From Burkholderiales bacterium (GTDB taxonomy: Bacteria; Pseudomonadota; Gammaproteobacteria; Burkholderiales; Burkholderiaceae), in contig JAGXBI010000005.1 of the NCBI GenBank assembly GCA_018971155.1, forward strand, positions 1 through 34,120: DNA of 34,120 nucleotides, in the 5' to 3' direction. The notes under the pieces are model-generated. The model saw only the letters and a program-made list of their open reading frames with translations, was not told where the DNA came from and ran no database searches. Below, piece by piece: positions 3,972-12,108 of this stretch. The position numbers and the translations under genes were made by a program. Each line of letters starts with the position of its first letter. The stretch's first letter is position 1.

Positions 3972-4778
3972 TCAATATTCGACCGGCAGCGGATCGAGAC
4001 TGCGCCACATATACCACGTCGCCACAGACCGCCACGGTTCCCAGTTGGCGGCGACCTCGCGCGCTTCGCTGCGCGTCACGGGTTCGCCGCTGAAATAGTT
4101 TGTGCTGATCGCGTTGATCAAACCGATATCGTCGAGCGGCAGCACATTGGGCCGCAGCAGGTTGAACATCAGGAACATCTCCGCCGTCCAGCGGCCGATG
4201 CCGCGAATCTGCGTCAGTTCCGCGATCACGCTCTCGTCGTCCATTTCGGACCATGAGCTCACATGCAACGCGCCGGATTTGAAATGCCCGGCCAGGTCAT
4301 GAATGTATTCGGCCTTGCGCTTGGACAGCCCGCATGCCGCCAGCGCCTCGTGGCCCGCCTTGAGGAATTGCGCGGGCGTGAGCCGCGGACAGGTCGCCTC
4401 GACGCGGTCCCAAACGGATTGCGCCGCCTTCACGGAAATCTGCTGGCCGACGATCGAGCGCGCCAGCGTCACGAACGGATCGCCCCGCCCGAGCAGATGC
4501 GCCGGCCCGAACTGCGGGATCAGTTTTTTCAGGATGCGATCGCGCTTGACCAGATCACTGCAGGCTTTATCCCAGTATTCCGGACGGCCCGTTCCGGATG
4601 TATAGACGGGTACCGCGCCGGTTACCACGACCGGCGCCGCCTTGGGCGTGTCAATCTGGGTGGTTTTGCCTGTTTTGACGACGACCTGCGTGGTTTTCGC
4701 AGCTTTTGCAGGCGTGGCGGGCGCTTTTAGCGCAGCGCTCTTACCGCGCGCAGTCGTGGTGGTTTTGCGAGTTGCCAT
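3972..4778 (-). CDS. DNA-3-methyladenine glycosylase (HhH-GPD family, AlkA-like) with Ala/Thr/Lys-rich N-terminal extension
   Basis: LARSIVGQQISVKAA...IRGIGRWTAEMFLMF...LPLDDIGLINAI, typical HhH-GPD glycosylase core. Confidence 0.92.
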   Translation of the reverse strand: MATRKTTTTARGKSAALKAPATPAKAAKTTQVVVKTGKTTQIDTPKAAPVVVTGAVPVYTSGTGRPEYWDKACSDLVKRDRILKKLIPQFGPAHLLGRGDPFVTLARSIVGQQISVKAAQSVWDRVEATCPRLTPAQFLKAGHEALAACGLSKRKAEYIHDLAGHFKSGALHVSSWSEMDDESVIAELTQIRGIGRWTAEMFLMFNLLRPNVLPLDDIGLINAISTNYFSGEPVTRSEAREVAANWEPWRSVATWYMWRSLDPLPVEY

Positions 4779-10181: not shown

Positions 10182-10982
10182 CTACTTGCGAGGCTGCCGC
10201 TGCAGGATATGCTTGGCGATGCCGCGCAAAATATTGACTTCTTCATGCTCCAGGCCGCTGCGCGCGAACAGGCGGCGCAGCCGCGTCATCAATCGCTTCG
10301 GGTTGGCCGGATCGAGAAAATCGAGCGCCACCAGGGCCGACTCCAAATGCGCGAACATTCCTTCGATTTCATCACGGCTGGCCAGCAACTCCCCGGGCGG
10401 CGGCTCGTGCCCGGACAGCGACGGTTGCTCGGCCAGGCATGCCAGGCGCGCCTCATAGGCGATCACCTGCACTGCCTGCGACAGATTCAGCGATGCATAC
10501 GCCGGATTGGCCGGGATATGCACCAGGGCGTTGCAGAGTTCGACAGCCTCGTTGGACAACCCAGCCCGCTCGCTGCCGAAGACGAAAGCGATCTGTTGGC
10601 CGCGAACCGCATGCCGGCATGCCAGGGCCGCCGACTCGCGCGGCACCGCCGATGGCGGTCCATATTCGCGGGTGCGCGCGGACAGTGCCACGGCCCAATT
10701 GACGCCGGTCAGCGCCGCCGGCAGATCCGGCTCGATGCGCGTGGCGGCCAGGACGTCGTCGGCGCCGCTGGCCAGCGCAATCGCCTCCGGGTGCTGCAGG
10801 ACGTCGCTGCCCAGGCGCGGAGCGGCCAGCACCAATTGGCCGAATCCCATGGTCTTGATGGCCCGCGCGGCCGCACCGACATTACCGGGGTGACTGGTTT
10901 CCATCAGCACGAAACGGAATTGATGAAACAGCGCATCGCGCCGTGCCGCTTCGTCGGGGGGTATTGCCATCGCAAATCTCAC
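10182..10982 (-). CDS. trmJ: tRNA (cytidine/uridine-2'-O-)-methyltransferase (SPOUT family)
   Basis: FVLMETSHPGNVGAAARAIKTMGF...FVFGSERAGLSNEAVELCNALVHIPANPAYASLNLSQAVQV. Confidence 0.93.
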   Translation of the reverse strand: MRFAMAIPPDEAARRDALFHQFRFVLMETSHPGNVGAAARAIKTMGFGQLVLAAPRLGSDVLQHPEAIALASGADDVLAATRIEPDLPAALTGVNWAVALSARTREYGPPSAVPRESAALACRHAVRGQQIAFVFGSERAGLSNEAVELCNALVHIPANPAYASLNLSQAVQVIAYEARLACLAEQPSLSGHEPPPGELLASRDEIEGMFAHLESALVALDFLDPANPKRLMTRLRRLFARSGLEHEEVNILRGIAKHILQRQPRK

Positions 10983-11053: not shown

Positions 11054-11215
11054 TAAAATAGCGTTCTTTCGCCGTCGAAGCACCCGTTGATATGAGTGCT
11101 TCGCGTGATGCCTGCAGGGCATCGCCACGGCAACGCTCTTATCCAAAATTCATCACGCAATCGTCGCGCGGTTGTCGGGCAGCGTCCCGGCGGTCCGGCA
11201 CACAAAGGATTATTC
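11054..11215 (+). promoter_or_regulatory. suhB promoter and structured leader with candidate boxA
   Basis: -10-like TAAAAT (11054-11059); hairpins cgaagcac/gtgcttcg (11076-11083/11096-11103) and gatgcc-tgcag-ggcatc (11107-11123); CGCTCTTA (11134-11141), identical to the lambda nut boxA core; alternative pairing gcgtgatg/catcacgc (11103-11110/11151-11158). Confidence 0.5.
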
Positions 11216-12016
11216 ATGCATCCCATGCTCAACATCGCGGTCAAGGCTGCTCGCCGCGCTGGCCAGGTCATCAATCGCGCTTCGCTGGATATCGACCTGG
11301 TCCGGGTCAGCAAGAAGCAGCATAACGATTTCGTGACGGAAGTGGACAAGGCCGCCGAACAAGCCATTATCGAAACCCTGCTGACCGCCTATCCGGAGCA
11401 CGCGATTCTAGCAGAGGAGTCGGGCGCTTCCGGGCAGGACTCCGAGTTTCAGTGGATCATCGATCCGCTCGATGGCACGACCAATTTCATTCACGGCTTC
11501 CCCTATTACTGCGTGTCGATCGCGTTGGCGCACAAAGGCGTCATCAGCCAGGCGGTCATTTACGATCCGACCCGCAACGATCTGTACACCGCTTCGCGCG
11601 GGCGCGGCGCATTTCTCAACGACCGCCGACTGCGCGTGTCGCGCCGCGACAAACTGGCCGACAGCCTGATCGGCACCGGCTTTCCGTTCCGCGATCTGCA
11701 AGGCATCGATAACTACCTCAAGATGTTCGGCACGATGACCGAACACTGTGCAGGCATCCGCCGCCCGGGCGCTGCCGCGCTCGATCTGGCCAGCGTTGCC
11801 GCCGGACGACTCGACGGTTTCTTCGAACAGGGGCTCAGTCCGTGGGATATGGCGGCCGGCAGCCTGCTCATCACCGAGGCCGGCGGTCTGGTCGGCAACT
11901 ATGTCGGCGACAGCAACTTCCTGCATCATGGGGAGATTCTGGCGGGCAATCCGAAGGTCTTCGCGCAAATGGTCAAATTGCTGGAAGGCTATTCCAGCGT
12001 CAAACCGTCGGCCTGA
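11216..12016 (+). CDS. suhB: Inositol monophosphatase family protein SuhB
   Basis: [25 protein letters not shown]...ILAEESG...[17 protein letters not shown]...[17 protein letters not shown]. Confidence 0.96.
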
Positions 12017-12052
12017 AACGATGGCGCGCGGCTGGCAAGCCGGCGATCCTTG

Positions 12053-12091
12053 AAAAAAAAGCCGGTGACTGTCATGCAGCACCGGCTTTTT
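12053..12091. terminator. Bidirectional intrinsic terminator between convergent suhB and gltX
   Basis: aaaaaaaa-GCCGGTG-actgtcatgcag-CACCGGC-ttttt; stem 12061-12067/12080-12086. Confidence 0.9.
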
Positions 12092-12108
12092 CCTTGCCGT
12101 GGGGACGC

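Follow-up and report, generated by a model that had tools for sequence, protein, structure and literature searches.

Is suhB in the Burkholderiaceae subject to feedback by the Nus factors through a boxA in its own leader, as is the case in E. coli and Salmonella, where the gene is autoregulated through such a site (Baniulyte et al. 2017, PMC5725501)? The question is raised by a 34,120-nt stretch of DNA (the window) from a Pandoraea-like genome, whose SuhB is 98% identical to the SuhB of a Pandoraea sp. MAG. The suhB coding sequence, an open reading frame of 266 aa, occupies positions 11216..12016 of the + strand. The nearest solved chains to its product are those of 'Nus factor SuhB' (9j90, 8wdq) and of E. 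coli SuhB (6ib7, 6tqn and 2qfl), and among these 6ib7 and 6tqn show the E. coli protein within an rRNA transcription complex. The gene is divergent from trmJ (10182..10982, - strand; an open reading frame taken as an RNA methyltransferase on basis of its translation and synteny) and convergent with gltX, and the divergent trmJ-suhB order is also annotated in E. coli. The same genome encodes nusB and a NusA with two C-terminal repeats, the region that contacts SuhB in E. coli (PMC6614801). An in-frame GTG at 11096 was considered as an upstream start of suhB and was rejected, because the relatives align at MHPMLN, the spacers differ freely in length and 11216 has a Shine-Dalgarno sequence before it. 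Between the convergent suhB and gltX, at 12047-12100, the inverted repeat GCCGGTG...CACCGGC is flanked by A and T runs and probably forms a bidirectional terminator.

The leader starts from a -10 box TAAAAT at 11054..11059 (+), recognized in the sequence, with a predicted transcription start at about 11066-11067 and hence a 5' UTR of about 150 nt up to the ATG at 11216. A consensus promoter scan missed this box, because there is no good -35 at 16-18 nt. The 8-mer CGCTCTTA at 11134-11141 lies within the predicted UTR, 3' of two hairpins, and the positions that an earlier note on this DNA had given for the TAAAAT box, the 8-mer and the leader were all confirmed. The boxA variant as we delimit it, GCTCTTATCCAAAATT, covers 11135..11150 (+) with the core GCTCTTATCCAA at 11135-11146, of which GYUCUU on the transcribed strand forms the first part (11135-11140). 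The Shine-Dalgarno sequence AAAGGA (11204..11209, +) follows 57 nt past the boxA core, and both the MFE and the centroid fold place a hairpin in the spacer between them (11173..11200, +). The boxA to Shine-Dalgarno spacers of the compared species are weakly more stable than their shuffles when taken singly (p 0.26 for the window) and slightly so overall; conserved structure in them is weak and they have no common shape. A C-rich, G-poor stretch (15 C and 5 G) at 11120..11159 (+) spans boxA and is a possible loading site for Rho; by C/G ratio, the 40-nt segments that begin at 11122 and 11130, which overlap, are among the highest 0.3% and 1% of the window. The window has no match to an Rfam family. 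A second boxA-like sequence, GTTCTTTC, lies at 11063-11070, directly 3' of the -10 box and at or before the predicted start. It is not kept in other Pandoraea, which have GTTTTCG there, and is therefore probably not functional.

The 8-mer is short, and the first alternative to be considered is that it arose by chance in a long leader that happens to hold ordinary GC-rich hairpins. In fact, CGCTCTTA is present twice in the window versus 0.53 expected, which corresponds to about 0.001 expected per 150-nt leader on one strand, and the folding energy of the whole UTR is unexceptional (z -1.37). The other exact copy, at 4736-4743, is devoid of further signs of a boxA and is probably a chance occurrence. 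For the copy before suhB, however, such an origin is refuted by conservation and can practically be dismissed. Of 80 Burkholderiaceae suhB loci, 79 have GYTCTT upstream of the gene, and the last locus, that of the reduced endosymbiont Ca. Pandoraea novymonadis, has a one-base variant (ACTCTTCACCAATTTT) at the corresponding place, so that the conservation in related leaders that the earlier note had put forward as a check is borne out. The consensus of the element is GYTCTTNNNCAATTYG. It takes the form CGCTCTTGCTCAATTTG near -100 in Pandoraea, CGTTCTTATTCAATTCG near -160 in Paraburkholderia, and forms such as CGCTCTTCTTCAATTCG at about -88 to -138 in Caballeronia; a genus with a small genome (g12) has the same boxA sequence at -28, and CGCTCTTGTCCAATTTG and similar sequences are found at -63 to -104 in a second family. 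In a sample of genera from across the Burkholderiaceae, 22 of which have suhB, 14 show GYTCTTNNN forms, 2 have GYTCAT near the start codon, 1 is unclear and 5 have no clear element. The distance between boxA and the ATG ranges from 28 to 185 nt (63-185 nt in most genera), and in Paraburkholderia boxA lies up to about 140 nt from the Shine-Dalgarno sequence. A sequence that is retained at varying distances from the gene is what is expected of a selected RNA tag, rather than of shared ancestry alone.

The extent of the conserved unit was established by a boxA-anchored comparison, which was used in place of a MAFFT alignment of the Pandoraea leaders that anchored on CATCGC and thereby misplaced the boxA of the window. 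Among 21 representatives the information content averaged 1.36 bits over 16 positions, versus 0.21 and 0.14 bits in the flanks, and columns 13-16, which had no part in the choice of the sites, reached 1.0-1.3 bits versus 0.14 downstream. The GYTCTTNNNCAATTYG 16-mer pattern is specific as well. It has 77 matches in 60 Burkholderiaceae genomes (~256 Mb), divided into 20 in suhB leaders, 12 identical in sequence to the pre-23S boxA and 45 elsewhere. On the density of the latter, about 0.001 match would be expected in the 200 nt before 55 suhB genes, where 20 were seen. The 17 other matches that were examined are scattered and have no shared context, one of them being a likely rRNA-spacer boxA. 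On the fetched stretches of the window genome no boxA element was found near nusB or nusA. A clear suhB boxA is absent from genera g113, g115, g119 and g122 (loci L235, L242, L245, L246, L252, L232, L237 and L243); in the genera that lack it, another Nus gene may carry the element.

The conserved sequence bears a close relation to the boxA of the ribosomal RNA operons. The rrn sequences were taken from Pandoraea congeners, the 16S gene being absent from the MAG of the window, and read GATCTTTAAAAATT before 16S and GTTCTTTAACAATTTG before 23S. The suhB element equals the pre-23S boxA except at positions 7-9, the Pandoraea suhB form being GCTCTTGCTCAATTTG. These three positions are UAA in the rRNA boxA and vary in the suhB leaders of the Burkholderiaceae; position 7, an A in the window, is not conserved, and genus g116 keeps T7 (GCTCTTTGTCAATTCG). 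The window sequence GCTCTTATCCA does not conform to GYTCTTTAANA, a consensus that is gammaproteobacterial (PMC5725501). The resemblance to the boxA of phage lambda that had been pointed out earlier is real for the 8-mer in the window; the unit that is conserved, GYTCTTNNNCAATTYG, is closer to the local rRNA boxA. Inspection by eye of 11151-11215 and of the boxA to Shine-Dalgarno spacers in the compared leaders revealed no boxC (GUGUGGGC), an element that is present in the rrn leaders of Pandoraea. Sequences faintly like boxC follow boxA in genera g14 and g128 (GTTGTGTTGT) and g111 (GTTGTGCTGT; loci L244, L248 and L251).

A second association with the rrn leader became apparent from the folds. 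The hairpins that had been described as two consecutive ones before boxA are indeed there, the first exactly at 11076-11103 and the second at 11105-11125, slightly longer than the 11107-11123 originally given; what had been overlooked is a third stem that encloses both. Together they are predicted to form a boxB-like 5'-terminal helical domain with a three-way junction (11071..11131, +), whose closing stem (11071-11075/11127-11131) ends exactly 3 nt, the linker AAC (11132..11134, +), before the G of boxA at 11135. The domain in the window has a folding energy of -33.6 kcal/mol versus a shuffle mean of -20.6 and is more stable than 100 of 100 dinucleotide shuffles, and closure of a helix before boxA has a p of 0.03 for the window alone. 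Among relatives, for which the segments from the predicted transcription start to boxA were folded, 20 of the 28 representatives have a helix that closes exactly 3 nt 5' of boxA, as against 1.8 on average and no more than 5 in any of 100 rounds of shuffling, and the mean closing-pair probability is 0.87 versus 0.42 (Wilcoxon p ~1e-6, the related species being not fully independent). Where it does so, the helix opens about 3-10 nt past the predicted start, spans 17-94 nt and ends immediately 5' of boxA. The genera have unrelated helix sequences (the window GCCGU/ACGGC, Paraburkholderia GCGCCCGG/CCGGGCGC), and the architecture is kept across them despite this turnover. The boxA itself was less paired than the whole UTR in 15 of the 16 leaders tested. 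The same spacing is found in the E. coli rrn leader, where the boxB helix GCCGCU...AGCGGC is followed by ACU (3 nt) and then by GCUCUUU, a gap that depends on the folded segment, as shorter and intermediate segments give 1 to 5 nt. The gap is likewise 3 nt in the folds of three Pandoraea rrn leaders, in the case of L085 only when a longer segment is used. The likeness to the rrn leader that had been suspected from the order of hairpin and boxA thus extends to their exact distance.

These folds also bear on whether the conserved sequence acts as RNA. Since it is located in a divergent intergenic region, it might be a DNA site that binds a regulator or forms part of the trmJ promoter. We consider this very improbable. 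The element lies 37-115 nt downstream of the -10 box on the suhB strand (among the 29 folded representatives TAAAAT, TAGAAT or TACAAT), it is kept in register by an RNA helix that ends 3 nt away and that maintains its pairing through changes of sequence, and it matches the rRNA boxA; moreover, the opposite strand of the related loci, read by eye, has no convincing -10 and -35 boxes.

Whether helix and boxA work together is a more delicate matter. The helix could merely guard the 5' end of the mRNA from decay and leave the Nus regulation to boxA alone, a sub-variant of the feedback model and compatible with it. The helix does start close to the predicted 5' end, at a distance of 3-10 nt, and E. 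coli and the other betaproteobacterial families have a boxA and no room for such a helix. However, protection of a 5' end does not need an exact 3-nt spacing (20/28), which moreover equals that of rrn, and we therefore regard a separation of functions as rather unlikely. A further reading, which we regard as somewhat less likely than not, is that an rRNA-style module of boxB helix, 3 nt and boxA in the mRNA leader makes suhB of the Burkholderiaceae compete directly with the rRNA operons for one and the same Nus assembly, and that the boxB helix has a selected function at a fixed spacing to boxA.

The presence of a boxA before suhB is not confined to the Burkholderiaceae. Across 30 other families of the order, represented by 61 suhB leaders, the scores of an rRNA-boxA matrix exceed those of shuffles and of the opposite strand (for the last 60 nt, p 0.0006 by sequence and 0.006 by family; similar for 100 and 150 nt). 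The best matches, among them GTTCTTTACCAA, GCTCTTTGAAGG, GTTCCTTAA and GCTCATTAAC, lie 15-45 nt before the ATG, and GYTC(T/C/A)TTAA is often found at about this distance from suhB in the other betaproteobacterial families. Several of these have GYTCCTTAA or GYTCATTAA (L158, L160, L169, L196, L213, L220 and L221), which suggests that a change at position 5 is tolerated in their boxA. The E. coli suhB boxA, GTTCTTTAACAT, is similarly placed, at -28. This distribution suggests that the start-proximal boxA is ancestral and that the Burkholderiaceae shifted it upstream.

Taken together, we consider it probable that suhB is under feedback by the Nus complex via an rRNA-like module of boxB helix and boxA. 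The suhB transcript would start about 150 nt before the gene, and its first ~65 nt would fold into a closed helix, leaving a boxA-type site single-stranded and exposed three nt past it. NusB and NusE (S10), joined by NusA, NusG and SuhB, would assemble on helix and boxA in the same way as on the rRNA leader, and the assembled complex would travel along with RNA polymerase. With free Nus complex in abundance, the loop between boxA and polymerase would block the loading of ribosomes on suhB and Rho would cut the untranslated RNA short; when the complex is occupied by rRNA synthesis, suhB would be released. We infer the binding of NusB/E, the negative sign, the translational block and the involvement of Rho by analogy to E. 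coli, where the Nus complex, once on boxA, represses the translation of suhB, the RNA is thereby exposed to Rho and the full complex is needed (PMC5725501). SuhB production would then probably be tied to the amount of rRNA transcription machinery as in E. coli, be it with another layout.

Negative feedback is our best guess as to the sign, and the rrn-like geometry makes positive antitermination its main rival. According to the latter, the Nus/SuhB complex would shield the polymerase from Rho within the long untranslated leader; SuhB would then favour its own expression or just offset the polarity of the leader, and control would be positive or neutral. The helix-3 nt-boxA arrangement is indeed that of the rrn leader and not that of E. 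coli suhB, and the leader, a long one, is rich in C around boxA. However, the + strand of the leader holds no intrinsic terminator, boxC was not noticed, and the sole suhB boxA with measured regulation, that of E. coli, represses (PMC5725501); we therefore deem antitermination improbable, be it less so than a chance or DNA-level origin. Certain points speak against the feedback model as well. The lack of conservation at positions 7-9 implies that the affinity for NusB/E could be low. In addition, there are the boxC not seen by eye, the five of 22 genera with no clear element, a transcription start that is predicted, and the long distance between boxA and the Shine-Dalgarno sequence. As to the last, repression of E. 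coli suhB survives when boxA is moved away from the ribosome site by insertions of up to 100 nt (PMC5725501), so that adjacency is not essential and the 57 nt in the window are no obstacle to negative feedback.

The analysis extends the case for Nus-factor feedback on suhB from the Gammaproteobacteria to the Betaproteobacteria with evidence from conservation; a search of part of the literature revealed no published betaproteobacterial suhB leader or boxA. The layout of helix, 3 nt, diverged boxA and long spacer is missed by a search for GYTCTTTAANA within 50 nt of the start codon, and the gammaproteobacterial study covered precisely that motif within 50 bp of starts in Gammaproteobacteria only (PMC5725501). 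Since the 3-nt spacing stays fixed through the turnover of the helix sequence, a small reporter would be enough for a direct test of the rrn boxB, whose role is unclear.

How does the leader compare with the known systems? To lambda nut it is linked by the identical 8-mer CGCTCTTA, and the lambda boxA likewise departs from UAA. In nutR and nutL, however, boxA comes first, followed by boxB, and the phage N protein takes part, whereas in the window the helix precedes boxA, there is no N and the gene is chromosomal suhB. Some Paraburkholderia/Burkholderia-type leaders (L024, L060, L226 and L238) have in addition a small hairpin (e.g. UCCG-UCGG-CGGA) a few nt 3' of boxA, which recalls the lambda order and is not shared by Pandoraea. 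The proposal of an E. coli-type suhB leader stands as far as a conserved boxA in the predicted UTR is concerned, and the C-rich, G-poor stretch covers this boxA as rut does in E. coli; the layout differs, since E. coli suhB has no upstream helix, about 20 nt between its -10 box and boxA, and a boxA 6 nt from the Shine-Dalgarno sequence versus 57 nt in the window. With the rrn leader, the suhB leaders share the helix that closes 3 nt before boxA and the sequence GYUCUU...CAAUUYG, although their element lies in an mRNA leader instead of before 16S and is without UAA at positions 7-9. The suhB leader of the Burkholderiaceae is thus closer to the rrn element than to the suhB leader of E. coli.
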